Virus record (IMG/VR): IMGVR_UViG_3300048573_000222
Coordinates: 1 to 34,970 of that record
Source: a virus
DNA length: 34,970 nt
Direction: 5' to 3' (one strand)
Shown in pieces: positions 858 to 34,096 of the stretch; the stretch's first letter is position 1, and the number at the start of each line of letters is the position of its first letter. Position numbers and translations under genes: made by a program. The notes below the pieces were generated by a model. The model was not told where the DNA came from. It searched no databases and saw only the letters and a list, made by a program, of their open reading frames with translations.

Positions 858-1079
858 ATGGTAGTACAAGTTAATTTTTTAGTTAAATGGCAATTTAAAG
901 AATATCCACATTATAAGATTTCAACTTGTAAAAAGATAATTAATTGTAAAACGGGTAAGATTATAAAATGTACAAAGTCAGGCGGGTCAATTGGTTATTT
1001 TATTTCGGGAAAGTTTTTTAAAAAAACCGATATAAATAATTATATTGAAATAATGCCTAAAAATGAATGTCCTTTTTAA
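858..1079 (+). CDS. Small protein resembling a NUMOD4-type DNA-binding domain
   Basis: The 73-residue protein has a middle segment (YPHYKISTCKKIINCKTGK) that resembles the NUMOD4 motif found in front of HNH homing endonucleases. It lacks any HNH catalytic part. It sits on the fixed side of the cassette array junction (805), facing away from the array, and is followed eight bases later by a strong terminator. Its first 21 codons recur at the window end. The assignment rests on motif resemblance only; it may be a free-standing small DNA-binding protein or an unrelated phage protein. Confidence 0.65.
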   Translation: MVVQVNFLVKWQFKEYPHYKISTCKKIINCKTGKIIKCTKSGGSIGYFISGKFFKKTDINNYIEIMPKNECPF

Positions 1080-1086
1080 AGCAAAA

Positions 1087-1116
1087 GACCCCCGCAAGTG
1101 CGAGGGTCTTTTTTAG
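1087..1116. terminator. Bidirectional terminator
   Basis: The hairpin has arms GACCCCCGC (1087-1095) and GCGAGGGTC (1100-1108) with one C.A mismatch. It is flanked by an A run on the left and a T run on the right. It ends the plus-strand gene 858-1079 and, on the other strand, the RNA unit that starts at 1408. Confidence 0.85.
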
Positions 1117-1119
1117 AAT

Positions 1120-1242
1120 TTCGTTTCTTTTTACGGTTTACGATGCCAATCTCATTGGCTCGTTAAACAAGTTTATAACTTTGTCGGTTATTTTTTCAGT
1201 TCTCTTATTCACTCTTATTTGCAGTCAAAACCAGTCGCCCCT
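1120..1242 (-). ncRNA. ssrA: 5' (tag-coding) part of a permuted tmRNA
   Basis: On the minus strand the RNA starts AGGGGCG, then ACTGGTTTTGAC, which closely matches the 5' end and D-loop-like part of bacterial tmRNAs. AGGGGCG (1242-1236) pairs at six of seven positions with CGCCTCC (1353-1347), including the G3.U70 wobble that alanyl-tRNA synthetase recognises. CAAATAAGAGT (1221-1211) pairs over 11 positions, with G.U pairs, with ATTTTTGTTTG (1384-1374), as helix P2 would. GAACTG (1202-1197) pairs with CAGTTC (1404-1399). Next come a hairpin at 1175-1191 and a long hairpin at 1136-1168. The long hairpin contains an open frame ending Met-Arg-Leu-Ala-Ser-stop (TAA at 1140-1138), a plausible tag end. 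The resume codon could not be fixed. Confidence 0.6.
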
Positions 1243-1250
1243 ATTTTTAA

Positions 1251-1323
1251 CAACTGTTATAGGATTTGCACCTATATTCTCCGATTTAGAAGGTCGGGAT
1301 TTTTTTATTTAAACTAAACAGTT
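1251..1323 (-). tRNA. tRNA-Arg(UCU), divergent elbow
   Basis: The cloverleaf has a perfect 7-bp acceptor stem (AACTGTT 1323-1317 with AACAGTT 1258-1252), T8 and A9, and a 4-bp D stem GTTT/AAAT. The anticodon stem CCGAC/ATCGG has one mismatch, and the loop CTTCTAA gives anticodon UCU. The T stem ATAGG/CCTAT is perfect, and the discriminator is G73. The D loop (AAATAAA) lacks the conserved GG pair, and the T loop is TGCAAAT, with G in place of the conserved T55. The two changes match, because G18 normally contacts position 55. AGA is the usual Arg codon in AT-rich genomes. It lies between the two tmRNA parts. Confidence 0.7.
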
Positions 1324-1345
1324 GCTGCCACTTACACGTGTTTTG

Positions 1346-1404
1346 TGGAGGCGGTGGGAATCGAACCCACGTCCAAACAAAAATCATAAATCGTCAATGA
1401 ACTG
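1346..1404 (-). ncRNA. ssrA: 3' (acceptor) part of a permuted tmRNA
   Basis: On the minus strand this contains P2 strand ATTTTTGTTTG, then GGAC, T stem GTGGG, T loop TTCGATT, CCCAC, acceptor strand CGCCTCC and discriminator A73. This is a standard tmRNA 3' end without an encoded CCA. It lies before the 5' part (1242) in the transcript, so the gene is circularly permuted. A -7 promoter box ends four bases upstream of its first paired base. The alternative reading, a phage attachment site copied from the 3' end of the host ssrA gene, does not explain the pairing 5' part or the promoter, and no integrase is present. Confidence 0.65.
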
Positions 1405-1407
1405 ATG

Positions 1408-1415
1408 CAAATATA
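1408..1415 (-). promoter_or_regulatory. -7 promoter box of the tmRNA/tRNA unit
   Basis: The box reads TATATTTG on the minus strand, matching the Bacteroidota consensus TAnnTTTG. Transcription would start just inside the acceptor part of the tmRNA and run through the tRNA to the terminator at 1087-1108, giving a precursor of about 320 bases. Confidence 0.65.
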
Positions 1416-1418
1416 ATG

Positions 1419-1574
1419 CTATTTTTTTATTTTAATACCTAAGTTATTCTTTAATTTATTCAGTCGCTTAATCCATCTTAAAATGCGTCCAACCAATGTC
1501 GTTGGTGCTTTATCGCTTATTAATTCGGTTGCAATGTCTAATACTAAATTTGGGTCAATTTTCTCTTGGCTCAT
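1419..1574 (-). CDS. Small basic protein, last gene of the late operon
   Basis: The 51-residue product has a strongly basic C-terminal half (RILRWIKRLNKLKN). Its ATG overlaps the TGA of the preceding tiny membrane protein gene by the ATGA arrangement, which fixes the start. It follows the endolysin and may belong to the lysis module, but no family was recognised. The promoter of the tmRNA unit begins immediately after its stop. Confidence 0.6.
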   Translation of the reverse strand: MSQEKIDPNLVLDIATELISDKAPTTLVGRILRWIKRLNKLKNNLGIKIKK

Positions 1575-8936: not shown

Positions 8937-9977
8937 TTATTTTGATGCTCTGAACTTTTCAAGAGCTGTCATTGGTTGTCTATTTATTTCTTTTGCTTCT
9001 GGATTCGCAACAATTGCCTTAGCTCCCGCTTCTGAAAGTTCAATTTTCAATGCAGAAAGTTCCGCTTTCAAAGTTTTGATTTCGTTGTCTTTCGATTCAA
9101 TTTCAACTTTTACACTCTCGAAAAAAGTTTCCTTTGATACCGTTTCAACTACTTTTTTTGCACTTGACATTTCAGGCTCTACTACCTCAGCTGGTGCAGC
9201 TTCTTTGGCTTTTACCTCTGAAATTTGACCCTCTACAGTTACAACAATAATGCTGCCGTCTGTGGTTTCATACTCTCCAATCGGTGCTGGTATAGCTCCT
9301 TCTTCTGTAACTATTCCGACTGAATAGCCCGCTTCAAAGCTCTCGGCTTCTAAGGTCGTGACACCATCAACAAGTTTCATTTGCTCTAGTTTCACTTCCA
9401 AAGAAAGCAAGGCTTTGACCTTATTTAACAAATCTTTGTACTCCATATCTAATTTATTTAATGTTAATTTTTCCTCAGCTTCTTGAAAGATTCCCTCGAT
9501 TGAGAAACCTTTTATTTCGCCTGATATTATTTTCTTTTTTATGTCATCGTCTTCAACTTTCATTGCGACCATCCACGTATTAATTGGATAATCAAACCCG
9601 TATTTTACACTTTTGTCGTGGACCGCATGTTCTTTGAGCCAAGTCTCAACAACTACAACGCCTTTTACATCGCTTTTGTGTTGTAATGTAATGTTGCTTT
9701 GATTCCCTTGCTGCATATATTTATGTGCAACTTTTGTAATCGTTTCACCACTTAAAAAGATTTGAAATATTTCACCATCTTTTGCTTTGCGGTCTATCAA
9801 CATATCCGGAATTAAAACAGCTCCCAAAATTAAATTACGCTCAACTTCTTTGAACTCAATTTTATGTTCTTTTGAAAGTGCAATGAAATTCTCTTGAATA
9901 GCAGGCGATTCCACCAAACTAATAGCGTAAACCCCATCGTTATCCTCTTGTAAAATAAGTTCAACTATTCCTTTCAT
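8937..9977 (-). CDS. XkdF-like prohead protease with scaffold tail
   Basis: The 346-residue protein has an N-terminal domain (1 to about 170) carrying XkdF-family features: VYAISLVESPAIQENFIAL, GAVLIPDMLIDR, ETWLKEHAVHDK and GFSIEGIF. This family is predicted to mature proheads. Residues about 260-330 form a charged coiled coil (VKVEIESKDNEIKTLKAELS), the pattern of a scaffold fused to the protease. It stands first in the head module, before the capsid gene, as expected. Catalytic residues were not assigned. Confidence 0.75.
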   Translation of the reverse strand: MKGIVELILQEDNDGVYAISLVESPAIQENFIALSKEHKIEFKEVERNLILGAVLIPDMLIDRKAKDGEIFQIFLSGETITKVAHKYMQQGNQSNITLQHKSDVKGVVVVETWLKEHAVHDKSVKYGFDYPINTWMVAMKVEDDDIKKKIISGEIKGFSIEGIFQEAEEKLTLNKLDMEYKDLLNKVKALLSLEVKLEQMKLVDGVTTLEAESFEAGYSVGIVTEEGAIPAPIGEYETTDGSIIVVTVEGQISEVKAKEAAPAEVVEPEMSSAKKVVETVSKETFFESVKVEIESKDNEIKTLKAELSALKIELSEAGAKAIVANPEAKEINRQPMTALEKFRASK

Positions 9978-12529: not shown

Positions 12530-14553
12530 TGTCTAAAGTCTGTTAATAGTTCTAGTTGTACTTCTCCCGTTGTTAGGTCTGTGGTCATTGAATTAATTAT
12601 AAATTTTTTATCTCGAATAATTAGGTTGTCATTTAATTTTAAAGATGTCAAAATACTAATTGGAAATATTGCAACCGCTTTATAAATCCGTGCTTTGAAA
12701 CTAAAAATGTTAGCGAAATAATTTTCGTAGTATTGATTATAAAGACTTTTTGAAATTAGTTCGTTTGTTATTGTTGATTGTTGGCTGTTAAAATTTAGGC
12801 TAAAATCTGAATACTCTTGACCAAATGCTTTATAGCTTGTGTAATTTACACCGTTGCCGTTAAGATCGGTAGAAAAATGATAGTTTGCATCCGTCAATGC
12901 GGTCAATGCATCAGGATTGAAGTCGTAAAGTATAACGGGTTTAGGCACGTACTTAGCCAAATCGCTTTTCAAAGCAAATCCTACCTGAAATTTATCCTTT
13001 AAATTACTAAAATTTAGATTTTCAAAGGGTAATTTAATCGAATATTCTTCGCCTTCGTTACTTGTGCTGTACAAAAGCGACCCATATTCCACCCCGTTGG
13101 CAGCTAAAAAGCCAACATTTACAATACTTTCGCTTTTTTCATACTCGAAATTTATCTTTTTAAACGTTTTTACGCGGTTTAAATTGATATTATCTGACTT
13201 GATATACTTAGTAATGTCTCTAACCGCTCCTGAATTATAGTAAGTTTCTAACTGCTCAACTGTGAAATTAATTCCATCTTCTGAAAAGCAAGTAAGGTTA
13301 AACATTTTTAGAATCCCGCTGAAAAAATCCTCGATTTTTATTTGTGGCATAATAGAGCCTACCAATAAATCGCCATTATAAGTATAGTTTGGTATTGTTA
13401 CGTTTGTATTCTCATAAAGAAAATAAGAGCCAAAAGATCCGTTAAAAGAACTATAATTAAAAGCAACGTTTGTTAATGACGCTGATACTTCAAGACTAAA
13501 TTTATAAGTATAATTACCCTCTGGAATACTATCTGAATTAGGATTGAAAATTGAAAAATTAGGCAATGCACTCGCATAAATCAAACCAAAAGAAGTATTG
13601 TTTTGAACTATCTCCTCTGTTAAACTTACTCGCTGACCGTTTAATAAAATTTCAAACCAAAACTTTTTTCCTATTAATGTATTAGGCACTCTTGCTGTAA
13701 AATATGCAGAGCATAACATTTGACCAAATCCCGCGCTAGGGTTTGGATTGACATAATTAAAAGTATTAGTTGATACATCAAATGTCGAAATTGACCTACC
13801 TAAATTATAAGAAACCGCACTAGATATAAAACTGTATCCCGTGAATAAAGGGTTAAATAAATCACCACTTTTCAACCACAAATAAGCATTCGTAAATCTT
13901 GCGTCATTCAAAAAATCACCATTAAAATTAATATCCCATTTTGAATCTCTTGCGATCATATCAAACACCGCCTTAACTCTTAATGCAGGAAATAATTCAT
14001 TGTAACGAATTGGATGAGAATTTACATTTACATCTTGACCACCGCTGCCATAACTCCAATACCTATCTGAACTAACCAAAGGAAACATAACATCGGCACT
14101 CAAAGCGGTTGCGGTTACTTTGTCGCGCACAACATTTGCAGTATAATTGAAATCGTAAAACGTACTGTCTAAATCCTTCAAAAATAATCCGGCGAATTTA
14201 TCTTTAAGACTTGCCAATGAACCGATAAAAGTAATAGAATAATTTTGTGGCTGTCCGTCAATTATAGTGCAACTTTCTAGCTGAACTTTTCCACGTCGAA
14301 ATAAAACAGTATCTAATTCAATGTAAGCATCAGCCTTTACATTTGTACTGAATTGACTATCTAAACTATTTTCGTACCAATGTAAAAAAATACGATTGTT
14401 TTTTTTCGATGCTGGAACCGTAAATGTTTGGGAGTAATCCGTGAATACTTTTGAAATGTCATTTATATTTTGGATCGAACTAGTGACGCTTATTTTTTCG
14501 TCATCAAATAATTCAATGCGCTCGTTATTTATAAAAACACCAACTGAAATCAT
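12526..14553 (-). CDS. Large tail tip / baseplate protein
   Basis: The 675-residue protein is beta-rich, starting MISVGVFINNERIELFDDEK, with many Asn/Ser/Phe residues and no enzyme motifs seen. Size, composition and location, between a similar 349-residue gene and the tape measure, suggest a tail hub or distal tail protein. Both ends overlap neighbours by four bases. The exact component (Dit, Tal or other) cannot be decided from the sequence alone. Confidence 0.6.
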   Translation of the reverse strand: MISVGVFINNERIELFDDEKISVTSSIQNINDISKVFTDYSQTFTVPASKKNNRIFLHWYENSLDSQFSTNVKADAYIELDTVLFRRGKVQLESCTIIDGQPQNYSITFIGSLASLKDKFAGLFLKDLDSTFYDFNYTANVVRDKVTATALSADVMFPLVSSDRYWSYGSGGQDVNVNSHPIRYNELFPALRVKAVFDMIARDSKWDINFNGDFLNDARFTNAYLWLKSGDLFNPLFTGYSFISSAVSYNLGRSISTFDVSTNTFNYVNPNPSAGFGQMLCSAYFTARVPNTLIGKKFWFEILLNGQRVSLTEEIVQNNTSFGLIYASALPNFSIFNPNSDSIPEGNYTYKFSLEVSASLTNVAFNYSSFNGSFGSYFLYENTNVTIPNYTYNGDLLVGSIMPQIKIEDFFSGILKMFNLTCFSEDGINFTVEQLETYYNSGAVRDITKYIKSDNINLNRVKTFKKINFEYEKSESIVNVGFLAANGVEYGSLLYSTSNEGEEYSIKLPFENLNFSNLKDKFQVGFALKSDLAKYVPKPVILYDFNPDALTALTDANYHFSTDLNGNGVNYTSYKAFGQEYSDFSLNFNSQQSTITNELISKSLYNQYYENYFANIFSFKARIYKAVAIFPISILTSLKLNDNLIIRDKKFIINSMTTDLTTGEVQLELLTDFRQ

Positions 14554-15599
14554 ACTACATCATTTATAAGGTTAAACGAATATTTAAAGTCAATTTCGTA
14601 ATTGATATTTCTATCTTTCAAATGCGTTTTTAAAACTGAACTTTGCGTCACAACCTCAGCAGGTTTTCCATCTAATAAAACGGTTTCACTTAAAAACAAA
14701 TCGGTAATTAATTCGCTGTAATTCTCATCTACCCAACCGGTGTTTAGTTTTACGCTTTGAGTCCCGTTAATATTAAATTTTTTACTTTGACCTTTGGAAA
14801 CATCATAATTAATTGACTCGGATAGTAATTTAAAAGAAGTTCCTTTCACTTCAATTGTATCTGTTTTAGCTTTGAAAAAAGTTAAGAATTGCGCGCCACC
14901 GTAACGATTAACGAACTGACAAACCACAGGCGAATACTTTGACTCTTCAATTGGTTCGCAAAAAAAGCTAGTAAAAGTACTTGCTCCAAAACGCAATTCC
15001 AATTCATTACCATTATCAAAATTTGCATTTGTTGTGGTTATTGGTATCTTGAAATTGTATTGACCACTTGGATCTGTTGTTGCTAAAACAGTAACGTTTA
15101 CAATCGTTGCACCTTTTTTATATCTTGCTATAATTGAATCACCTAATATAGAATCTCGTACTACTTCGATATAAGGAAAGTTCGTATTTGACCTATCGTA
15201 ATAAGTAATTATGTTTGTATTTTGCAATACTTTGTCTTCAGCATCAAAATTATATCCATCTGTAAAAAGAGTATAACCGTTAACAGCTAAATATAAAACA
15301 GTATCCAATAAAGTGAAAGTACCTGTTGATTTGTAACGTTTTACTTTGACCCTACACCAATTCTTTGCATCGTTTGCCGTTGGTCCTGCAACATAAGTAA
15401 TCGAATTTTCAATAAATTCTTGAATAAAGTTTGAAATATTATAATCCGTTCTTTGACTTATATCTTTCGTGAAAGAATAAGTTGGTGTCATTGGTTCAGT
15501 CGTGCCATCATTCCAAATAAATAACTCAATTTTACTACCAACTTGTCCGACTTCATTGACCGTAATAAAATACGGACTTCTTATATTTAATATTTTCAT
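14550..15599 (-). CDS. Tail tip structural protein
   Basis: The 349-residue protein (MKILNIRSPYFITVNEVGQV) is predicted mainly beta, with repeated Gly/Thr/Tyr/Asn strands. Four-base overlaps join it to both neighbours, so it is made together with the 675-residue protein. It is probably part of the tail tip or distal tail. No conserved motif was recognised. Confidence 0.55.
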   Translation of the reverse strand: MKILNIRSPYFITVNEVGQVGSKIELFIWNDGTTEPMTPTYSFTKDISQRTDYNISNFIQEFIENSITYVAGPTANDAKNWCRVKVKRYKSTGTFTLLDTVLYLAVNGYTLFTDGYNFDAEDKVLQNTNIITYYDRSNTNFPYIEVVRDSILGDSIIARYKKGATIVNVTVLATTDPSGQYNFKIPITTTNANFDNGNELELRFGASTFTSFFCEPIEESKYSPVVCQFVNRYGGAQFLTFFKAKTDTIEVKGTSFKLLSESINYDVSKGQSKKFNINGTQSVKLNTGWVDENYSELITDLFLSETVLLDGKPAEVVTQSSVLKTHLKDRNINYEIDFKYSFNLINDVV

Positions 15600-22014: not shown

Positions 22015-22124
22015 ATTAGTGGTATAAAAGGTATGGTATAAACCCTATCTATATATAGGGTTTTATACCATTATACCAGTATAGTGGTATAGTATAGTGG
22101 TATAATGTGTTTTATACCACTTAT
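22015..22124. repeat. GGTATA repeat block, candidate replication origin
   Basis: This gap of about 135 bases between two replication genes holds about eight copies of GGTATA or its complement. It includes a direct repeat AGTATAGTGGTATA (once shortened), a long hairpin at 22035-22069 (GGTATAAACCCTAT against ATAGGGTTTTATACC) and an outer inverted repeat (TTAGTGGTATAAAA with TTTTATACCACTTA). Iterons plus AT-rich DNA next to an AAA_25 ATPase fit an origin. A multi-site operator is the alternative. Confidence 0.6.
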
Positions 22125-22138
22125 TAACAATATTTTTA

Positions 22139-23224
22139 TTATAAAAAACCTTCATTTTCGCTCTCAAAAGTACCAATATAATACTTGTTATCTGTCACAC
22201 TTTTAAGTACATAGGACGTATCAATTAAATCTTTAATAAAGTCTTTTGCGTATGCTTCCCCAATCGTCTCATCAGACTTAGTTAAATAAGCTCTTTTAAA
22301 ATGATCCAATAATTGACCATATCCAATACCTAAATCCTTTGAGGTGTTGAATATATCTAAAACAATATCCTCTTTATAAATTTGGTACAATTCTTTTTTA
22401 GTCAATTTTCTTTCGGGTTTATTGGATGCCTCAAAATCTGAAATATAAGGTATTCCGTTTTCGTCAATTTCAAAAGCAAATGATTGTGGCTCGATATTAC
22501 GGCACATTTCAGCGTTAACTATACTAACCATAGGATTGTCGGCAGACTTGCTAACAGATAGCACGGTTTCGGCTTTATTGTTTAGTTCCGTGCCAATATG
22601 TCCTCGTGCGTTGGTATCGCTTTTATTCTGATGCAGTACTGTTGTTATAAGTATGTTTTTTTCCTCAGACCACTTCATTAGCTTACTGACTATCATAGTA
22701 GCTTGTTCTTCATCGTTTATTGAAGTTATAAGGTCTTTTATACCATCTATAAAAATAATGCCTAATTCGGGCGTGTTGTATATTGCATACTCAATAAGCT
22801 CTAATCTTTCGCTGGGTGTTAATGCTCGAAGTCCGTAAACATTTAAGTTGTTTGGTTCTTGCACTCCTACTATCTTGCAAATACGTTTTAATGCTAATTG
22901 TACGTGATATTTACCTTGTTCTGTATCAAAATATAAAACACGCCTTTGTTTAGTAGGTAGTTCGTTTTTTAGCACCGAAATAACATTTTTAGATGATACA
23001 GCAGCACTAACAGCCATACCGATAAAGAATGATTTACGGCTTTTTGCTTTACCAATAATAGACAAAATATTCCCTAAAGTTCCGATAATTGCATCGTCAA
23101 TGCGAAGCGCAACCTCTGGAGGTGGAATTTTATCGAGTGCTTTTATTTCATAATCTAAAAGCTTTTGAGACAAATCAACTGATAATGATTGTTCTTCTTT
23201 ATTTATAATTATTGGTTCAAACAT
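22139..23224 (-). CDS. AAA_25 / RepA-like RecA-fold ATPase (replicative helicase type)
   Basis: The 361-residue protein has Walker A GKAKSRKS (58-65) after an ILSIIG strand, then the RVLYFDTEQGKY strand, Walker B IIFIDGIKDLI near 160, and the sensor segment VLHQNKSDTNARGH. This is the AAA_25 pattern of plasmid RepA and phage replicative helicases. The C-terminal part (about 270-361) is helical and may bind DNA or partners. It probably opens or unwinds the replication origin that follows it. Confidence 0.85.
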   Translation of the reverse strand: MFEPIIINKEEQSLSVDLSQKLLDYEIKALDKIPPPEVALRIDDAIIGTLGNILSIIGKAKSRKSFFIGMAVSAAVSSKNVISVLKNELPTKQRRVLYFDTEQGKYHVQLALKRICKIVGVQEPNNLNVYGLRALTPSERLELIEYAIYNTPELGIIFIDGIKDLITSINDEEQATMIVSKLMKWSEEKNILITTVLHQNKSDTNARGHIGTELNNKAETVLSVSKSADNPMVSIVNAEMCRNIEPQSFAFEIDENGIPYISDFEASNKPERKLTKKELYQIYKEDIVLDIFNTSKDLGIGYGQLLDHFKRAYLTKSDETIGEAYAKDFIKDLIDTSYVLKSVTDNKYYIGTFESENEGFL

Positions 23225-23911: not shown

Positions 23912-23933
23912 ATAAAACCGCATCTTATTGCGG
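23912..23933 (-). terminator. Terminator of the helicase transcript
   Basis: On the minus strand CCGCA (23933-23929), loop ATAAGA and TGCGG are followed by TTTTATT. The stem contains the helicase stop codon. Confidence 0.7.
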
Positions 23934-25460
23934 TCGTGTAAAGATAATAATTTTTTTATATTTTTTAATTATTTGTTCGCAAAAAGTAAAATATTTTACT
24001 CGCTTACCATCTTCCAACATCGAGCCTAAAATTTTAAAATAAACGGGTCGTAAAAGTACGTTAAATCTTTTCTGAATATTTGCGTTAAAAGATTCAATTG
24101 TAAAATCTTGAGCTAATAAAAATTTTAACCATTTTTCTTTTAGGACTTTTAAAGTTTCAAATTTCGTTTTGCCTTTATTAATAAAAAAGTTGAGGTCGAT
24201 ACTAGGAATTTCAAGTTTGTTTTTTTTTCCTTGAATTATAAATTCCTTTTGTTCTTTTTCTTGCTCTTCGCCCAATGGTTTTTCATAACCACAATTTGGG
24301 CAAATCTTTTCTTTTGCCAAAGAAGTGAAACCGCACTCGTCACATTCTTGAATGTCATCAACAATATTTTTAATTTTTCGGTCGCTAAAAATCTTGTACC
24401 AATCTCGATCGAAGCTAAATATTTGATGCTCTTCATTATTATTTCCACCGTCAATTAAAGTGAAGTAAGGCTTTTCTATTTTATTTGTTGTTCTTGCACC
24501 ACGTCCCGCAATTTGAATCCAAAGAGAAAGGCTTTTAGTTGCTCGCGCCATTAAAATAACCTCAACATCGCAAACATCAAAACCTTTTGTAAAGCATCCA
24601 GTATTAATTAAAACTGCATCCCTTTGATTTTTAAACCAATAAATAACCTCGGTTCGCTCTTTGCTTTCGTTGTTTACGCTATCATAAGTTCGTACATTTT
24701 TATCTTTAAAAAGTTCCGCATAAATAGCGTTTGTTTCAGTTGAACTTGTAAAAATCATTGTTTTTTTACCATCGCAAAGTTTATCAAAAGTTTTGCGAAG
24801 TGCTGTTTTATAAGATTCGGATTGAAAAACCTCTTTAAGACTTGAAGCCGTGAACTCTCCTGAAGCATCAGTCTTTAATGGCGTACTATCAAACTCGATA
24901 TACTCGTTTTTTTCCCGAACCAAATAGCCGTTTTCCATTAACCAACTTATTGGTTTGCCACAAATAATATCATCATAAACATCTGACATTGTTTCTACTG
25001 CTGATTGAAATTCGTCAATTTTATATCTTTTCAATCTTACGGGAGTTGCTGTAAATCCTATAATTTTGCAGTCTTTTAGAAAAGGGAATAATTTGTTCCC
25101 TTCCCACAAATGGCACTCATCGTAAATGCAATAATCAAACTTTGGCATCTTTGCTTTTCTATTCCAAAGACTTTTTACCATCGCTACAATTACCAAATTT
25201 TCAGGAAATTTTTTATTACCTGCCAAAACACATCCCACGTCAATACCTTGCTTTTTGAAAGTGTCAACTGTTTGATGCACTAAATCAATGCTGTCAACTA
25301 ATATTAAAGTTTTGGTATTTAGTTGTGAAACTAATTCGGTAAATATTACTGTTTTACCTCCTCCAGTCGAGAGTTGAACGCATAAACGGTCAACTATTTT
25401 TATCTTTTCAAAAATACCATCAAGCAACTCTTGTTGGTAAGGTCTTAATGTTTTTTTCAT
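23925..25460 (-). CDS. SF2 DEAD/DEAH-box helicase
   Basis: The 511-residue DNA helicase has the motifs in order: LRPYQQ, Walker A STGGGKT (31-37), DECH, GFTATPVR and QIAGRGART. Two zinc-binding CxxC pairs (CDECGF ... CPNCGY) follow at about 375-395. Enzymes of this type act in replication, recombination or repair. Its mRNA carries the kissing-hairpin leader (25471-25546), and transcription ends at 23912-23933, so it forms its own unit within the early region. Confidence 0.9.
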   Translation of the reverse strand: MKKTLRPYQQELLDGIFEKIKIVDRLCVQLSTGGGKTVIFTELVSQLNTKTLILVDSIDLVHQTVDTFKKQGIDVGCVLAGNKKFPENLVIVAMVKSLWNRKAKMPKFDYCIYDECHLWEGNKLFPFLKDCKIIGFTATPVRLKRYKIDEFQSAVETMSDVYDDIICGKPISWLMENGYLVREKNEYIEFDSTPLKTDASGEFTASSLKEVFQSESYKTALRKTFDKLCDGKKTMIFTSSTETNAIYAELFKDKNVRTYDSVNNESKERTEVIYWFKNQRDAVLINTGCFTKGFDVCDVEVILMARATKSLSLWIQIAGRGARTTNKIEKPYFTLIDGGNNNEEHQIFSFDRDWYKIFSDRKIKNIVDDIQECDECGFTSLAKEKICPNCGYEKPLGEEQEKEQKEFIIQGKKNKLEIPSIDLNFFINKGKTKFETLKVLKEKWLKFLLAQDFTIESFNANIQKRFNVLLRPVYFKILGSMLEDGKRVKYFTFCEQIIKKYKKIIIFTRPQ

Positions 25461-25470
25461 ATTAAAGTAA

Positions 25471-25546
25471 AAACCCCATTTAGGGGCGGTGGACGTCGCT
25501 TGCCTAAATAGGGTTTGATAATATTGTTATGTAGCGTCCACTCTAC
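25471..25546 (-). ncRNA. Kissing-hairpin 5' leader, copy A (before the helicase gene)
   Basis: On the minus strand hairpin 1 is GTAG-AGTGGACG-CTAC (25546-25531), five bases after the -7 box. A 14-bp outer stem follows: AAACCCTATTTAGG (25516-25503) with CCTAAATGGGGTTT (25484-25471), one T.G pair. It encloses hairpin 2, GCG-ACGTCCAC-CGC. The loops share seven complementary bases, GTGGACG with CGTCCAC. TTTTT follows the outer stem, and the ATG comes 10 bases after it. The outer stem plus U tract looks like a terminator placed before the gene. Copy B has the same architecture with different bases, so attenuation or ligand sensing is likely. Confidence 0.65.
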
Positions 25547-25551
25547 AAATG

Positions 25552-25559
25552 CAAATATA
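25552..25559 (-). promoter_or_regulatory. -7 promoter box of the helicase unit
   Basis: TATATTTG on the minus strand lies just inside the short gap after the 73-residue gene. The leader RNA starts about five bases downstream. Confidence 0.7.
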
Positions 25560-26132: not shown

Positions 26133-26483
26133 TTAGAAGGGTAAATCGTCTGTTTGTGGTTGCGTTGTTGGTGCTGATGGAATTGGTGCAGGACTTTGTT
26201 TTGAGGTGTCTTGTGCCTTAATTTTCCAACCCTGAATCGTATTAAAATACGATGTTTCACCTTGCTGATTTGTCCATTCACGACCCCGTAAATTAACGCC
26301 AATTTCAACACTTTGCCCAACGTGGTAACCATCCAAAACAGCGCATTTATCTTGCACAAATTGCACTAAAATATGCTGTGGATATTGTTCTTCAGTTGTT
26401 ACTACAATGTCTCTTTTTTTGAACCCCGACGATCCCACCTCTTTAGTATTGTCGATAAATTTGATTTTTCCTGTTACTTCCAT
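26133..26483 (-). CDS. SSB-like OB-fold protein (DUF3127 type)
   Basis: The 116-residue protein has an N-terminal OB-type domain (MEVTGKIKFIDNTKEVGSSG ... GREWTNQQGETSYFN). A Pro/Gln/Ser linker and the acidic tip TDDLPF at the very end follow. This tip is the mark of bacterial SSB proteins, which use it to recruit partner enzymes. It probably coats single-stranded DNA during replication and recombination, next to the YqaJ nuclease and the helicase. Confidence 0.8.
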   Translation of the reverse strand: MEVTGKIKFIDNTKEVGSSGFKKRDIVVTTEEQYPQHILVQFVQDKCAVLDGYHVGQSVEIGVNLRGREWTNQQGETSYFNTIQGWKIKAQDTSKQSPAPIPSAPTTQPQTDDLPF

Positions 26484-26659: not shown

Positions 26660-27310
26660 TTAAAATTTTAAATTGTTTAATTCGATTTCTATTTGTTCTT
26701 TTAATTTTTCTGCTTCTATTTTAGCGATTACAACCCATTCAGAAATAGTTTTAAATATTGGTTTTGCTTTAGTTCCTAAATTTACCAAACTATCTCTAGT
26801 CAATTCCTTTACAAAAATCGGCTTGTAAATATTCTCAGGTCTATAACTACAAAAGTAATGCTTTTGAAGTTTAGGATTAACCGTGAAATAATGCAAACAT
26901 TGATGTATATTATCGCTTGGAATTTCGTTTGTCAAAATAGTTTTTAAATGTTTTTTTGAATTTGGACATTTTATTTCAGCAGAAATAGTTTGACAATCTG
27001 TTATCCCATCTGGCGAAATTCCGATATATTCGTTTTCTTCGCATTGCAACCATCCGACTTCTTTTAATTCAACTCCTAAATAAGCACTCAAGGCTTTTCT
27101 TGCTTCAGGTTCTAATTCGGAACCTCTTTGCATATCGAATGATTGATAGTTTTCTTTTAAGTCAAACTCTTCACAGATTTCACTTAAAACGTCCTCTAAA
27201 AGAGTATCAGATTTTACAAATAATCCTTTAGATAATGTACCGCCAATCTTTGCGTACCTCGCTTTGTGCCAATCTTCCGAATGCTGTTCAATGTCGTATC
27301 TTGCTATCAT
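26660..27310 (-). CDS. YqaJ-family (lambda exonuclease-like) recombination nuclease
   Basis: The 216-residue protein has RGSELEPEARKAL near residue 63, GISPDGITD near 117 and EIKCPNSKKH near 131. These give the PD-(D/E)XK catalytic acids and lysine in the YqaJ order. The enzyme digests one strand from double-strand ends to make single-strand tails for annealing. It is coupled to the 177-residue gene upstream, its likely partner. Confidence 0.87.
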   Translation of the reverse strand: MIARYDIEQHSEDWHKARYAKIGGTLSKGLFVKSDTLLEDVLSEICEEFDLKENYQSFDMQRGSELEPEARKALSAYLGVELKEVGWLQCEENEYIGISPDGITDCQTISAEIKCPNSKKHLKTILTNEIPSDNIHQCLHYFTVNPKLQKHYFCSYRPENIYKPIFVKELTRDSLVNLGTKAKPIFKTISEWVVIAKIEAEKLKEQIEIELNNLKF

Positions 27311-27840
27311 TTTAAAGTAGTTTTTAGTTTTTCTTTAAGTGCGATTACTGTTGGTAAATGTTGCTCTGTTGGTGTTAATATTTTCCACGCTATTTGCAAT
27401 GCTTCTAAAGACGTGCATAATTTTAATGCTGAAATTGCAACCGCATCGCTAACCACTTTTTTAACTACAGGCTTTACTTTAATACCACCCGTTACTTTTC
27501 CCATCATTTTAACGCTTGGATCAAACCATAAGTCAATTTGAATACCATTCCAACTAGGTAACATTCTACTTTCAGCACTTGAACATCCAAGTTTTTCTTT
27601 TACAATGTCGTTAATGATTTTACGGTTGCCACTATTTGCAACCATATCTTTTACGGGTTCGACAAAAGAAATAAAATAACCATCCGTTTTATTTCCTGAA
27701 ACATCTACACCCCTATCGTAAAATGCTTCTTTAATTGTTAAAATGCAATTGCCTTTTTCTTCAACAATTGCTTCGACATCGATACCCGCTAAATGCGTAG
27801 ATTTTCGATACTTCATTGAGTCAATTTCTGTCTCTTTCAT
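27307..27840 (-). CDS. Probable recombination partner of the YqaJ nuclease
   Basis: The 177-residue protein (MKETEIDSMKYRKSTHLAGI) has no clear motif. It overlaps the nuclease gene by four bases, and such genes often encode a single-strand annealing or end-binding partner. It is the first gene of a unit with the kissing-hairpin leader copy B. A lysine-rich C-terminus and a VKPVVKKVVSD linker suggest nucleic acid contact. Confidence 0.6.
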   Translation of the reverse strand: MKETEIDSMKYRKSTHLAGIDVEAIVEEKGNCILTIKEAFYDRGVDVSGNKTDGYFISFVEPVKDMVANSGNRKIINDIVKEKLGCSSAESRMLPSWNGIQIDLWFDPSVKMMGKVTGGIKVKPVVKKVVSDAVAISALKLCTSLEALQIAWKILTPTEQHLPTVIALKEKLKTTLK

Positions 27841-27859
27841 AATACTTTTAAATTTAAAA

Positions 27860-27938
27860 ACCCTTCCAAAAATTACGGGTCAGCGTAAAAGTCAGAAGGG
27901 TAAAAAATGATTTTCAGTTAGAAGTTCTGACCAACTTC
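27860..27938 (-). ncRNA. Kissing-hairpin 5' leader, copy B (before the recombination operon)
   Basis: On the minus strand hairpin 1 is GAAGTT-GGTCAG-AACTTC (27938-27921), six bases after the -7 box. An outer stem follows, ACCCTTC (27901-27895) with GAAGGGT (27866-27860), then TTTTT. It encloses hairpin 2, TTACG-CTGACC-CGTAA (27888-27873). The two six-base loops, GGTCAG and CTGACC, are perfectly complementary. The layout equals copy A but the bases differ in all helices, which is covariation-like support for the structure. Confidence 0.68.
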
Positions 27939-27943
27939 GAGTG

Positions 27944-27951
27944 CAAATATA
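27944..27951 (-). promoter_or_regulatory. -7 promoter box of the recombination operon
   Basis: TATATTTG on the minus strand lies in the 140-base gap upstream of the 177-residue gene. Confidence 0.7.
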
Positions 27952-30865: not shown

Positions 30866-31018
30866 ATGGGAAGAAATAAGCTGCCACAAGGCGAAAGAAA
30901 GGACAAAGTAGATGTATTCGTAAAGAGTAAAACAATCGAAAAGATTGGTTATAAAAAGTGCGCTGAAATAGCTGTGACGGCTATTGAAAAGGAATACTTT
31001 AAATTTGAGAAATTATAA
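30866..31018 (+). CDS. Small ribbon-helix-helix-like protein
   Basis: The 50-residue protein (MGRNKLPQGERKDKVDVFVK) has a basic N-terminus, one short strand (VDVFVK) and two helices, the outline of a ribbon-helix-helix DNA-binding protein. It is transcribed from its own promoter 19 bases upstream, divergent from the early operon, the usual site of a phage regulator. Its TAA is part of the first array core (TTATAAC). Confidence 0.6.
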   Translation: MGRNKLPQGERKDKVDVFVKSKTIEKIGYKKCAEIAVTAIEKEYFKFEKL

Positions 31019-31047
31019 CGTTTTGCGGCTATACGAGGTTGTTGCCG
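31013..31047 (+). repeat. Half attC-like site 0 (left end of the array)
   Basis: The left half only, TTATAACGTTTTGCGGC followed by TATACGAGGTTGTTGCC, is the standard left arm. The matching right arm ending in CTGTTA is missing, and the next gene starts after an A-rich stretch. This marks one end of the array. Confidence 0.6.
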
Positions 31048-31090
31048 AATTAAAAACCGACCTCACAAACACAAACTAATATTTAAAATT

Positions 31091-31297
31091 ATGACTGAAA
31101 TTTCAAAAAATGCCGAATTGCAACAATCTTGTATAACCGCTGTTATCACTCGTTTTTCTGGAGATGAAAGATTGAAGTTGCAAAAACATTTTACAAGCCT
31201 TTATGGAACAAATGAAATTGCACAAGAAAAAGCTAACAGTTTTGCTGTTGGTTTTGGAAAAGCGTGTGATATGATTATTTCGGCTCTAAATGAGTGA
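31091..31297 (+). CDS. Cassette protein 1
   Basis: The 68-residue helical protein (MTEISKNAELQQSCITAVIT) is followed directly by site 1, whose core shares the stop region (GTGATAAC). No family was recognised. Confidence 0.6.
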   Translation: MTEISKNAELQQSCITAVITRFSGDERLKLQKHFTSLYGTNEIAQEKANSFAVGFGKACDMIISALNE

Positions 31298-31373
31298 TAA
31301 CGTTTCGCAGCCTTGTACTGCCGCCTATGCGGTTGCGTAAATTCGGCGGTAGTTCAAGACTGCTGTTAGTAGC
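31295..31373 (+). repeat. attC-like site 1
   Basis: The shortest site (79 bases): left core TGATAAC and arm GTTTCGCAGCCTTGTACTGCCGCC. The right arm is GGCGGTAGTTCAAGACTGCTG, then G/TTAGTAGC. Arms pair over about 18 positions with the usual left surplus (GTTT) beside the core. Confidence 0.75.
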
Positions 31374-31404
31374 TGGACGGATTAATTAAAAACTAAATAT
31401 TATT

Positions 31405-31647
31405 ATGGAAACAGAACGAAAAATATGGAAACTGACTTTAAGTCAATGTTGTAAAAAACCAATATTTTCTATAAAAGATACAGTTGGAAAAGGCTTCTTT
31501 TGCACAAATTGCAAAAAACCTGTTTACAGTACAATAGATAGAAAATACTGGAATAAAATTTCTAAAGAACCGAAAAGCGTAGTCTTGCTACTAACGTACT
31601 GCATCTTCACGCAGTTGCGGTGGATGATGACCGAAAATAACAAATAA
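31405..31647 (+). CDS. Cassette protein 2, small zinc-ribbon-like
   Basis: The 80-residue protein has cysteines in CCKKP and, 17 residues on, FCTNCKKP, an arrangement suggesting a zinc ribbon. Its last 17 or so residues are encoded by the recombination site that follows (31587 onward), so the C-terminus depends on which site sits there. Confidence 0.55.
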   Translation: METERKIWKLTLSQCCKKPIFSIKDTVGKGFFCTNCKKPVYSTIDRKYWNKISKEPKSVVLLLTYCIFTQLRWMMTENNK

Positions 31648-31726
31648 TAACAAAACTTAAAATTTAGCCTTATGCTTGAAAATAAAGAACAGCCCCCGCA
31701 ATTGAGTGAAAATGTTGTTAGTGGCA
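31587..31726 (+). repeat. attC-like site 2
   Basis: Left core GCTACTAAC is complementary to the start GTTAGTAGC of its own unit. Arm GTACTGCATCTTCACGCAGT pairs with the right arm ending GAGTGAAAATGTTG/TTAGTGGC. The next gene appears to begin inside the interior. Confidence 0.72.
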
Positions 31727-31869
31727 GTTTTGTAAAAAAACGATATATGAAATGCCCTCATATCGACAAAAAATGTCAATGGAGGATGGCACCTGAACAT
31801 CAAAAAGGATACGAATATTTGAATGGTGCTTGTTATTTGGCTGGAAGTTTCATTTTGGAATGTCCGTAA
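31672..31869 (+). CDS. Cassette protein 3, Cys-rich
   Basis: The 65-residue ORF's first 15-25 residues lie in site 2, and an internal ATG at 31747 gives a 40-residue form. The latter part holds CPHIDKKC and GACYLAGSFILECP, possibly metal binding. Which start is used is undecided. Confidence 0.5.
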   Translation: MLENKEQPPQLSENVVSGSFVKKRYMKCPHIDKKCQWRMAPEHQKGYEYLNGACYLAGSFILECP

Positions 31870-31872
31870 AAT

Positions 31873-32010
31873 TGCCACTAACGTTATCTCGCTTGGCGAG
31901 GTTGCTGACTTCGGAAAAATAAATTTTCAATTTAAAAATAAATATGATGCGAAACGAAAACGTGAATGAACCACAAAATCAGCAATCTTGCCAAACGAGT
32001 GTTAGTAGCT
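31873..32010 (+). repeat. attC-like site 3
   Basis: Left core TGCCACTAAC is complementary to its unit start GTTAGTGGCA. Arm CTCGCTTGGCGAGGTTGCTGA pairs with TCAGCAATCTTGCCAAACGAG. The right core is G/TTAGTAGC. Confidence 0.78.
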
Positions 32011-32141
32011 GTGTTTTTACTTGTATTTGTCCGAGTGGATTGAAATACACAAAAGACCACGTAAAAGCTATGAAAGAATGGCGAAAAATAGTAATGAATT
32101 ATTTAAAAATTGAACGACTTTACAAAACTATAAATCAATAA
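31944..32141 (+). CDS. Cassette protein 4a
   Basis: The 65-residue ORF begins (ATGATGCGAAAC) inside the interior of site 3 and runs through its right arm. It has cysteine-containing CVFTCICPSGLK and a helical C-terminus. If real, site and gene must travel together. It ends three bases before the next gene. Confidence 0.45.
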   Translation: MMRNENVNEPQNQQSCQTSVSSCVFTCICPSGLKYTKDHVKAMKEWRKIVMNYLKIERLYKTINQ

Positions 32142-32144
32142 ATT

Positions 32145-32465
32145 ATGAAAACAGAAATCACATTAATCGTTTTAGGAATTTTAATAACTGCTTTAGTTAT
32201 AAATGTAGTAATTGGAAATATTAAAAAACGTGCTTATTTAAAAGGATATAAACAAGCCGAATTTGATATTACTGCAAATATGTTAGATGTTGCTACTTGG
32301 TTTGGTGGCAGAAAACAGATTTACAACTCACTTTATTTATTTGCTGTTAGATATAGAAATAAAAACCACGTTTCAGCACATTATTTCAGAGAAGATATTT
32401 TGAATTTGGGCGAAAATAGAATTACAGATTTGTCAAATGAAAAATATAAGCAGTTAGTTGAGTAA
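32145..32465 (+). CDS. Cassette protein 4b, membrane-anchored
   Basis: The 106-residue protein has an N-terminal membrane helix (LIVLGILITALVINVVIG at about 6-23) and a soluble C-terminal part of about 80 residues. It shares one cassette with 4a and is followed by site 4. No family was recognised. Confidence 0.62.
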   Translation: MKTEITLIVLGILITALVINVVIGNIKKRAYLKGYKQAEFDITANMLDVATWFGGRKQIYNSLYLFAVRYRNKNHVSAHYFREDILNLGENRITDLSNEKYKQLVE

Positions 32466-32468
32466 CAT

Positions 32469-32608
32469 AGCTACTAACGTCCTAGTGCTTGGCGAAGAAG
32501 CGGATAAATAAGCCTAAAACTTCGATTAAGCACCGAACTAACAAAAAATAAACAAACTTTAAATTATAAACCGAACTCGCTTTTTTGCCAAACACTTGTT
32601 ATGTGAGG
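32469..32608 (+). repeat. attC-like site 4
   Basis: Left core AGCTACTAAC is complementary to its unit start GTTAGTAGCT. Arm AGTGCTTGGCGAAGAAGCGG pairs with TCGCTTTTTTGCCAAACACT. The right core is G/TTATGTGAG. The loop is long and A-rich. Confidence 0.77.
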
Positions 32609-32633
32609 TTGTGGGTCGATAAAACAAAAATCT

Positions 32634-32858
32634 ATGTGTAATTCAATAATAATAAATTTAGGAGAAAAAGAAATTGCAACCCCAAGAGAGTTTTTAGAAC
32701 ATTTTGGATTTGTTCCATATGATGTAGAAGCAGTATTAATGGACGAATGTTTATGTTATTGTGACCTTGAAAAAACTTTAAACGAACATAAAATACCATT
32801 TAAAAATGATTGTGGGGATTTATATGTTGGGATGTTGGAAAAAATAAAATGGACTTAA
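32634..32858 (+). CDS. Cassette protein 5a
   Basis: The 74-residue acidic protein (MCNSIIINLGEKEIATPREF) has the cysteine pair CLCYC. It is followed after three bases by 5b in the same cassette, a two-gene unit. No family was recognised. Confidence 0.6.
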   Translation: MCNSIIINLGEKEIATPREFLEHFGFVPYDVEAVLMDECLCYCDLEKTLNEHKIPFKNDCGDLYVGMLEKIKWT

Positions 32859-32861
32859 ATA

Positions 32862-33140
32862 ATGGAAATGATAGAATATTTTAACAGATATAGTGATACT
32901 GATTTACCTGATAAAATGGGTAGATGGGCAAGAATAGGGATTTATAATAATATCCGAGTTTCTTGGATAAGTAGAGTTCAAACAAAAGATAAAGTAGTTT
33001 TTTGCGCAAGTTGTCATTTTCCTACTATGCAAAATGATACGGCCAATGAACATAAAACTTTTGAAACATTTGAAAATGCAAAAGACTTTGTTTCTGAAAG
33101 ATGGAATTGGTTTTTAAATGCAATAAAACAGCCTGAGTAG
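32862..33140 (+). CDS. Cassette protein 5b
   Basis: The 92-residue mixed alpha/beta protein has CASCHFP in the middle and a C-terminal helix rich in Trp (ERWNWFLNAI). No family was recognised. Confidence 0.6.
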   Translation: MEMIEYFNRYSDTDLPDKMGRWARIGIYNNIRVSWISRVQTKDKVVFCASCHFPTMQNDTANEHKTFETFENAKDFVSERWNWFLNAIKQPE

Positions 33141-33167
33141 CTTTGGTTACAAAGTTGCTCGAAGCTG

Positions 33168-33306
33168 GAATATAACGTTTTGTAGCTTGTTGCAGTGGCG
33201 TGCAAGTAAGCGAGTAGTTTCGGTTTAAAAACTATAATAACAGAGAAGCCAAATCATTAAATTAAACAACAACCAAGCCATTGCTACAAACTACTGTTAT
33301 GTGAGG
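33168..33306 (+). repeat. attC-like site 5
   Basis: Left core ATATAAC with arm GTAGCTTGTTGCAGTGGCGTG pairs with CAAGCCATTGCTACAAACTAC. The right core is G/TTATGTGAG. Here the left core does not mirror its own unit start beyond TAAC, which suggests past recombination between different cassettes. Confidence 0.75.
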
Positions 33307-33329
33307 TGCGGTTACTTAAAACTAAAATT

Positions 33330-33917
33330 ATGGGTTGCGACATTCATTTATTTACGGAAAGAAAAAGAAACATTAATAATGAAGAAAAATGGGTTAATGT
33401 TGATAATTGGAAACTAAATCCTTACTACGACAAAAATGACGAAGAAGAAAGAAAGTACAAGTTAAATTCTGCTTATAGAAATAGAAATTATACTTTATTT
33501 TCTTTATTGGCTGATGTTAGAAATTACGATGATAACAAAATAATTTCAGAACCAAAAGGATTTCCAACAGATGCAAGTGAAATTGTGAAAAAACAAAACG
33601 AATATTGGGAAGGAGATGGTCATTCACATAGTTTTTTTACAATGAAAGAACTTTATGATTTTTATGAAGAAAATAAAACAGTCAACTTTACTGGATTAGT
33701 TGACCAAAAAGGAGTTAAAGAAATAGAAAACGGACAAATGCCAAGTTGGTGGTGTAAAGCAAGTACGCAAGAAGATTTAGTTTATAAAGAATGGGACTTT
33801 GAAAACTTGACTTTAAAAGATTTTATTGATAAATTGGAAAGTCATTTTAAGTCTGAATATTATGATAAAGAAAGAGATTGCGAAAAATTCAGAGTTGTTT
33901 TCTGGTTTGACAACTAA
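33330..33917 (+). CDS. Cassette protein 6, MGCDIH family
   Basis: The 195-residue protein starts MGCDIHLFTERKRN, with DVRNYDD, a SEPKGFPTD segment and GDGHSHSFF. These conserved pieces occur in a family of phage and bacterial proteins of unknown function, rich in possible metal-binding His, Asp and Cys. The start at 33330 is chosen because the family begins with MGCDIH; an ATG at 33306 is unlikely. Confidence 0.75.
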   Translation: MGCDIHLFTERKRNINNEEKWVNVDNWKLNPYYDKNDEEERKYKLNSAYRNRNYTLFSLLADVRNYDDNKIISEPKGFPTDASEIVKKQNEYWEGDGHSHSFFTMKELYDFYEENKTVNFTGLVDQKGVKEIENGQMPSWWCKASTQEDLVYKEWDFENLTLKDFIDKLESHFKSEYYDKERDCEKFRVVFWFDN

Positions 33918-33926
33918 ACGTAGCAT

Positions 33927-34069
33927 CTCACATAACGTTCCGCAGCTACACGAGCGGTTGGGGCAAAAAACGCCTGGTCTTTCGGAGTTGAACCAGACCT
34001 TAAAAACAAGAACAAAAAATTGAATTAATAACCAAACCCCAACTGTCGTGTAACTGCTGTTATGTGAGG
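33927..34069 (+). repeat. attC-like site 6
   Basis: The outer cores CTCACATAAC and GTTATGTGAG are perfectly complementary. Arm GCAGCTACACGAGCGGTTGGGG pairs with CCCCAACTGTCGTGTAACTGC with one unpaired G on the left. This is the clearest site of the array. Confidence 0.82.
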
Positions 34070-34096
34070 TTGTGGGTCGCTAAAACTAAATCTATT

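Follow-up and report, generated by a model that had tools for sequence, protein, structure and literature searches.

Does a pair of leaders that share one architecture but not their bases, each standing ahead of replication or recombination genes in the same phage genome, represent a selected RNA device, and what could such a device do? The question is raised by the window analyzed here (the whole 34,970-nucleotide stretch of virus record IMGVR_UViG_3300048573_000222). Direct reading of the window sequence revealed that the leader before the recombination operon (copy B) is real and runs on the minus strand (27951→27838), with the −7 box, hairpin H1, outer stem around hairpin H2, U tract and start codon in the order given by the original prediction (Table 1). 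Its loops, GGTCAG and CTGACC, had been described as fully complementary and unlike those of the other leader; they are exact reverse complements, and the second leader (copy A, 25559→25458, minus strand), located ahead of an SF2 helicase gene, carries GTGGACG and CGTCCAC instead.

Table 1. Coordinates of the leader elements, the genes behind them and the palindromes of the window
Feature	Position	Strand	Sequence or remark	Basis
Copy B −7 box (Bacteroidota)	27944..27951	−	TATATTTG	sequence
Copy B spacer		−	CACTC, five bases between −7 box and H1	
Copy B H1	27921..27938	−	GAAGTT-GGTCAG-AACTTC, 6 bp	folding, sequence
Copy B kissing loop 1	27932-27927	−	GGTCAG	
Copy B linker	27902..27920	−	TAACTGAAAATCATTTTTT, A/U-rich, 19 nt	sequence
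Copy B outer (terminator) stem, 5′ arm	27895..27901	−	ACCCTTC	folding, sequence
Copy B H2	27873..27888	−	TTACG-CTGACC-CGTAA, enclosed by outer stem	folding, sequence
Copy B kissing loop 2	27883-27878	−	CTGACC	
Copy B outer stem, 3′ arm	27860..27867	−	GGAAGGGT	folding, sequence
Copy B U tract	27850..27860	−	TTTTTAAATTT	sequence
Copy B start codon	27840-27838	−	ATG, 19 nt past outer stem	
Copy B first gene	27307..27840	−	177 aa, phrog_21613; heads YqaJ exonuclease/SSB operon	
YqaJ-type exonuclease	26660..27310	−	downstream of copy B	
Single-strand binding protein	26133..26483	−	phrog_4932, DUF3127; downstream of copy B	
Copy A −7 box	25552..25559	−	TATATTTG	sequence
Copy A H1	25530..25547	−	TGTAG-AGTGGACG-CTACA	sequence
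Copy A kissing word 1	25541-25535	−	GTGGACG	
Copy A linker	25515..25529	−	TAACAATATTATCAA	sequence
Copy A outer stem, 5′ arm	25503..25514	−	ACCCTATTTAGG	sequence
Copy A H2	25486..25499	−	GCG-ACGTCCAC-CGC	sequence
Copy A kissing word 2	25495-25489	−	CGTCCAC	
Copy A outer stem, 3′ arm	25473..25484	−	CCTAAATGGGGT	sequence
Copy A U tract	25467..25472	−	TTTTAC	sequence
Copy A gene, SF2 (DEAD/ResIII) helicase	23925..25460	−	511 aa; start codon 10 nt past parsed outer stem	
Palindromes	31013-31148, 31876-32006, 32470-32606, 33168-33305, 33928-34067	+		

The first T of the copy B U tract (27860) is also able to pair with the outer-stem base. Folded as a single sequence and without the loop–loop helix (the kiss), copy B reached −23.4 kcal/mol, a value equalled or bettered by 4 of 200 shuffles (z −2.43), which taken alone is modest support; the weight is carried by the comparative data.

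The first relatives were fetched via the 177-aa protein and via the helicase. Inspection by eye of 17 relatives of the 177-aa gene revealed a leader directly upstream in only four (L003, L010, L011 and L012), the remaining ones being preceded by other, mostly coding, sequence. The loops of copy B were retained in L003, L010 and L011 on altered H1 stems (GAATCT/AGGTTC, GAAGTT/AGCTTC and GGATTT/AAATCC, respectively), and L012 carried a different loop pair, CGCCAA/TTGGCG. Complementary loops were seen, again by eye, at the same place in all six of the first helicase loci. A descriptor requiring two hairpins with loops complementary over at least 6 nt, the second hairpin enclosed by a stem that a U tract follows, was used to scan 1.35 Mb; combined with a full −7 box and a score of at least 55, it gave 40 matches (overlapping contigs included) versus none in five dinucleotide shuffles, and without the promoter condition 75 matches versus 10.4 in shuffles. 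The loci of helicase relatives yielded 47 matches, versus a mean of 2.0 in two shuffles. The original prediction was to be abandoned if there were no further members and folding was no better than that of shuffled sequence; it survived both comparisons (40 versus 0; z −2.43). The leader is a recurrent element of Flavobacterium-type phages, not a two-copy curiosity.

Before members were counted (76 parsed matches; 73 members), all matches in L113, L114, L118, L163, L180, L192, L206, L210, L218, L240, L245, L269 and L270 were left out by eye. Also left out of the 73-member set were L141 −5978, L143 +7289, L150 −7472 and L268 +4235, judged by eye to be probable products of chance, of tandem repeats or of the opposite strand; the doubtful row L215 −5531 was kept. 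A list compiled blind to the U tract served for H2 lengths, ATG distances and BLAST with masked words, and rows from L001, L010 (minus), L012 (907) and L046 were removed from it by eye. Duplicates from overlapping contigs were removed only if the core sequence was identical.

Two cultured virulent phages carry the leader, snusmum6-1 (host Flavobacterium sp. LMO6) in three copies, located at 9707-9823, 13648-13751 and 14683-14802, and mumin6-1 in two; these isolates are described in PMC7077304. Among 199 genomes of the genus of G001, model R1 (see below) gave no chromosomal member and model R2 a single match, located in the phage-like contig of L107, which, with 18 candidates scored per genome and strict filters, is weak evidence of absence. 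Convincing devices were present only in L107 among 18 genome loci with helicase relatives.

The kiss was also recovered by approaches blind to it. Among candidates chosen by promoter, hairpin, terminator and ATG, 56 of 91 (a set that includes a few devices entered twice via two neighbouring boxes) had a loop–loop complement of at least 6 nt, versus 5.4% of 8,190 mismatched pairings. The covariance model R1 was built from subclass A7 without loop–loop pairs, and neither copy from the window was in its training set; a search of 80 hand-chosen sources, several of them picked as known carriers of the device, returned 60 matches at E ≤ 0.1, both window copies included. After 12 rows with identical cores had been dropped, complementary loops of at least 6 nt were present in all 48 distinct matches, which held 25 different words, versus 20% of mismatched pairs, a background that recurring related words push upward. 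A BLAST search in which the words were masked revealed four cases of relatives with a changed word, three of which keep all seven pairs and the fourth six contiguous ones. One of these cases is copy A and its ortholog in L107 (a Flavobacterium MAG), in which GTGGACG/CGTCCAC corresponds to GTGGAAG/CTTCCAC, a compensatory change. The Watson–Crick complement between the loops is kept through such changes, as in a kissing-loop complex.

Covariation was found in all parts of the leader, namely the loops, H1, H2 and the outer stem. In the A7 alignment 96.3% of cells are paired, 16 of 20 pairs show double changes and the covariation score is 0.764; shuffling lowers it to 0.276, and slid partners give no more than 0.128. 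Subclass A6, that of copy B, gave 94.1% paired cells, double changes in 16 of 22 pairs (among them all six pairs of H1 and all six of H2) and a score of 0.584, versus 0.223 shuffled. Kiss pairs changed on both sides number three of four in A7 and two of six in A6, the other four being invariant; in A6 the kiss is nearly constant while the underlying stems vary freely. These compensatory changes demonstrate the structure of the leader, and they lend strong support to the earlier view of it as a selected RNA device. G·U pairs occupy 31 cells of the two alignments versus 2 for A·C, a count biased by the choice of stems with G·U allowed. An element acting at the DNA level (an origin or a protein-binding palindrome) was rejected because U tract, promoter and start codon share one orientation.

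The leader is linked to a promoter: the TAnnTTTG box lies −2 to 11 nt, mostly 0–6, before H1 in the 60 scanner matches with a full box, and H1 therefore presumably lies near the 5′ end of the RNA. Kissing words comprise 6 to 10 bp (73 members), H2 often has just 3–5 bp (U-tract-blind list), and the linkers measure 11–34 nt, averaging 19 nt (76 parsed matches), often with AAGAYATT-like stretches. In one subclass (L086, L091, L050, L079 and L031) the linker additionally holds a small hairpin with AACCGA-like bases after it. Between outer stem and H2, the internal loop reads AGUA/GAA in 16 of 73 members (5.6 expected if independent), which we take to be a bulged-G or loop E motif; in 19 it is UGAU/UGAU-like (tandem G·A), and 38 have neither motif. 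The conserved non-helical features of linker and internal loops could be structural.

These same features might form the pocket of a small-molecule riboswitch, between the outer stem and H2, and both the linker stretches and the frequency of the two loop motifs would suit it. We nevertheless consider a riboswitch very improbable: more than half of the members (38/73) lack either motif, the genes served have no metabolite in common, and no Rfam riboswitch was matched. No loop base is conserved family-wide, linker and internal loop are conserved in part, and the idea of a riboswitch class lacks support. Rfam 15 matched only tRNA and permuted tmRNA in the whole window, with nothing for the leader, and gave only a chance match to snoZ196 for five device loci at E ≤ 1; no family scored above its curated cut-off for the leader, in agreement with the earlier remark that this is not a recognised riboswitch class. 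Purine, lysine and guanidine-II riboswitches have loop–loop contacts or kissing hairpins, sometimes a terminator, and invariant pocket bases. They resemble the leader as leader RNAs with kissing loops, but its words vary (25 of them) whereas their pocket does not.

The outer hairpin and the tract that follows have the structure of an intrinsic terminator, a stable hairpin directly before a run of U. The mean MFE of the terminator hairpin is −16.6 kcal/mol, with all 73 members at or below −8 kcal/mol; the T frequency at the first four post-stem positions is 0.76, 0.96, 0.93 and 0.90 (72 members); and at least four T in seven are present in 48 of 54 unique devices found without requiring a U tract, versus a background of about 26%. 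The tract as a mere translation enhancer is disfavoured, because it stays at the stem even when the ATG is 41–50 nt away (L003, L034, L039 and L073). A leader-peptide attenuator was likewise rejected: 11 of 73 leaders have an ATG ahead of their outer stem, versus 34.8 expected from shuffles, and a leader peptide is therefore not indicated.

Three of the leaders (L003 6606+, L039 12549+ and L073 9826+) have an extra conserved stretch like AATAGTTTATCGGTAACTTAAAACCGTTAT between the U tract and a small MAK... gene. At 9707-9827 of MN812234 (L025), the annotated start of snusmum6-1 gene gp033 (9791) falls within the device, whereas the leader architecture points to 9827 as the start.

The first downstream proteins of the 73 members fall into 25 clusters, with one member lacking an ORF; families were searched for cluster representatives only. 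They comprise 23 SF2 helicases, six GIY-YIG and six NUMOD4-HNH endonucleases, five proteins of the phrog_21613 cluster, four of a cluster with RecT-like and AAA_24 proteins, three primase/DUF3987 proteins, an ERF protein, replication-initiation-like proteins and unknowns, some of them small. Most of these genes are thus replication, recombination or homing-endonuclease genes. That the leader precedes replication and recombination genes had been recognized correctly, but its breadth had been underestimated, as the endonucleases, primases, replication-initiation-like and small genes and the cultured phages reveal. Joint coordination of replication and recombination genes by the leaders is no more than a conjecture, given that loop words differ from copy to copy and that no common signal emerged.

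Kissing words are not tied to genes. The helicase cluster alone has 12 of them, and CGGGCAGG is found ahead of several different genes. Within each of 13 loci holding two or three devices the words are all different; across phages GGTCAG recurs in nine and CGGGCAGG in eight of the 73 members. Such recurrence, with the perfect complementarity of the loops, would be compatible with a trans-acting pair, in which the terminated RNA of about 100 nt would kiss further transcripts from its locus and adjust them in a dose-dependent way. However, a single molecule carries H1 and the outer stem at a distance of 11–34 nt, which should favour pairing in cis, and we give the trans-acting pair little credence. 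Kissing or complementary stretches gate expression between two RNAs in pT181, in ColE1 (RNAI/RNAII) and in the c4 RNA of phages P1 and P7, the c4 RNA being processed from the same transcript as its partner. The leader shares their gating complements but has both partners close together in one RNA.

Rop recognises the RNAI/RNAII kissing helix of ColE1, and a phage protein (SSB, the helicase or a dedicated regulator) might similarly recognise the shape of the kissing helix and autoregulate its gene. The shape is conserved while the letters are not (25 words), and the genes served bind nucleic acids; but no single protein stands behind all copies, given the 25 clusters, and a protein-binding leader appears improbable to us.

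We propose instead, with a probability of roughly 55%, that the leader attenuates transcription close to the promoter, acting as an intrinsic terminator that a kissing loop within the same RNA controls and that is read through when kissed; termination in vivo, the direction of the effect and the shifting signal are predicted parts of this proposal. RNA polymerase would start at the −7-box promoter and make H1 almost at the 5′ end of the RNA. Transcription of linker, 5′ outer arm and H2 would follow, and the H2 loop could pair immediately with the H1 loop over 6–10 bp, before the 3′ outer arm completes the terminator, its U tract just ahead of the start codon. An intact kiss would most likely tether H2 to H1 via the short linker and hinder the last outer-stem pairs, resulting in read-through, and on loss of the kiss the terminator would close. 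Polymerase speed, a protein, temperature or another RNA are candidates for opening or closing the kiss. Since every copy has its own word, each leader would act on itself only, and the device could serve as a portable cassette heading replication, recombination and homing-endonuclease genes. Two considerations underlie the proposal: (i) the terminator is strong alone, and the kiss is therefore most simply a modifier of it, and (ii) the kiss is kept by selection though the terminator is stable without it, and therefore must change an outcome.

The geometry leaves the sign of this effect less certain. The rod has a near constant length of 31±3 bp (76 parsed matches), and in a rigid-rod estimate the ratio of linker contour to rod length averages 1.42, being below 1 in 7 of 76 and at least 1 in 69 of 76. 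Kiss and full outer stem are compatible in most members, and geometry therefore does not demand steric antitermination; a kiss that helps termination fits equally. It would speed or stabilise the H2/outer hairpin, and an RNA-binding protein or helicase opening the kiss would turn the genes on. The constant rod and an H2 of often just 3–5 bp, which would gain from the kiss, are in its favour, but the terminator hairpins are strong already and added stabilisation seems unneeded. We therefore rank a kiss that hinders the terminator first and a helping kiss, which we regard as unlikely, second.

If the leader folded as one unit, longer rods might be expected to go with longer linkers, but this test was negative: no increase of linker reach with the length of the rod was seen (Spearman −0.32, p 0.005; 76 parsed matches). 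The rather fixed motifs of linker and internal loop suggest more than a bare tether. Of a classical antiterminator, in which the 5′ outer arm is sequestered before the 3′ arm is made, there is no sign, since the paired fraction of that arm is 0.40 versus 0.49 shuffled. By eye, an alternative pairing between the H1 loop region and the outer 5′ arm (GTCAGAA/TTCTGAC) was noticed in copy B and its closest relatives and in no other subclass.

According to the accessible part of PMC9378689, the put RNA of phage HK022 is about 70 nt long with two stem-loops, occurs in two copies (putL and putR), one of them just after PL, and forms a V-shaped RNA bound to the β′ zinc-binding domain of RNA polymerase. 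The leader resembles it as a two-hairpin RNA of similar size near the 5′ end of the transcript, right after a promoter (H1 mostly 0–6 nt past the −7 box), in several copies per genome. It might thus be an antiterminator of this type: once kissed, the RNA would attach to the elongating polymerase close to the promoter and cause this and later terminators to be ignored. However, put as described in that text has neither loop–loop complementarity nor a built-in U tract, whereas here the loops pair mutually and H2 lies inside a U-tract terminator; cis action, demonstrated for put, is inferred for the leader. Loop and stem sequences here vary almost freely, which leaves few bases for sequence-specific contact with polymerase. 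Put-like antitermination is the nearest precedent by position and build; as the actual mode of action of the leader we think it improbable. Another promoter-near terminator is that of lambda pR′-tR′, where read-through occurs only upon modification, Q acting via a DNA site and a sigma-dependent pause; in the leader it is RNA structure that is conserved.

A search of the open-access PMC literature yielded no description of the leader and no regulatory RNA of Bacteroidota phages. The leader was likewise not found in the accessible parts of two surveys of candidate structured RNAs (PMC2864571 and PMC8040213), the second of which mentions, and is cited here for that mention rather than for a structure, HMP_4078, a palindromic Bacteroidetes candidate near phage domains. 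Until function is measured, the leader would best be regarded as an attenuator or leader RNA with an architecture for which we found no record, rather than as a new principle.

The window contains further elements. At 22069-22181 (minus strand) there is a weak third R1 match (E 0.039) with repeated TATACCACTATAC units, possibly a different element; the gene behind it is putatively VRR-NUC-like, a name assumed from the annotated gene order of snusmum6-1. A permuted tmRNA (Rfam, 48.9 bits) at 1047-1435 (minus strand) overlaps a tRNA-Arg(tct) call and has a TATATTTG box upstream; it could be a tmRNA of the phage or, alternatively, a tRNA extended by chance. The plus strand of 31013-34070 holds at least five imperfect palindromes of about 130–140 bp with ends TAACG.../...GTTA, between small plus-strand ORFs. 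Folding clearly surpassed that of shuffled sequence for two of them (z −3.65 and −3.13), the other three reaching −0.4 to −0.8; their form is reminiscent of integron attC/VCR-type sites, and the region may be a cassette-like phage array. Inside one palindrome, 31901-31986 is 86% identical to unannotated stretches of Flavobacterium psychrophilum phages.

To our knowledge, gene regulation in Bacteroidota phages has been little explored, and the leader realises one architecture in dozens of independent sequences, with copies in the cultured virulent phages snusmum6-1 and mumin6-1 that are open to immediate laboratory study. If the leader is indeed an attenuator, a phage would be able to time its replication and recombination genes by promoter-proximal RNA alone, and many natural, mutually orthogonal kissing pairs would be available for engineering. 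A broader reading, which we advance tentatively, is that the leaders form an RNA-only switch class of Flavobacterium-type phages, a portable cassette in which an intramolecular kiss with private words decides between termination and read-through without a dedicated protein or ligand; such a class would supply attenuators that are naturally orthogonal to one another and coupled to the replication–recombination–homing programme.
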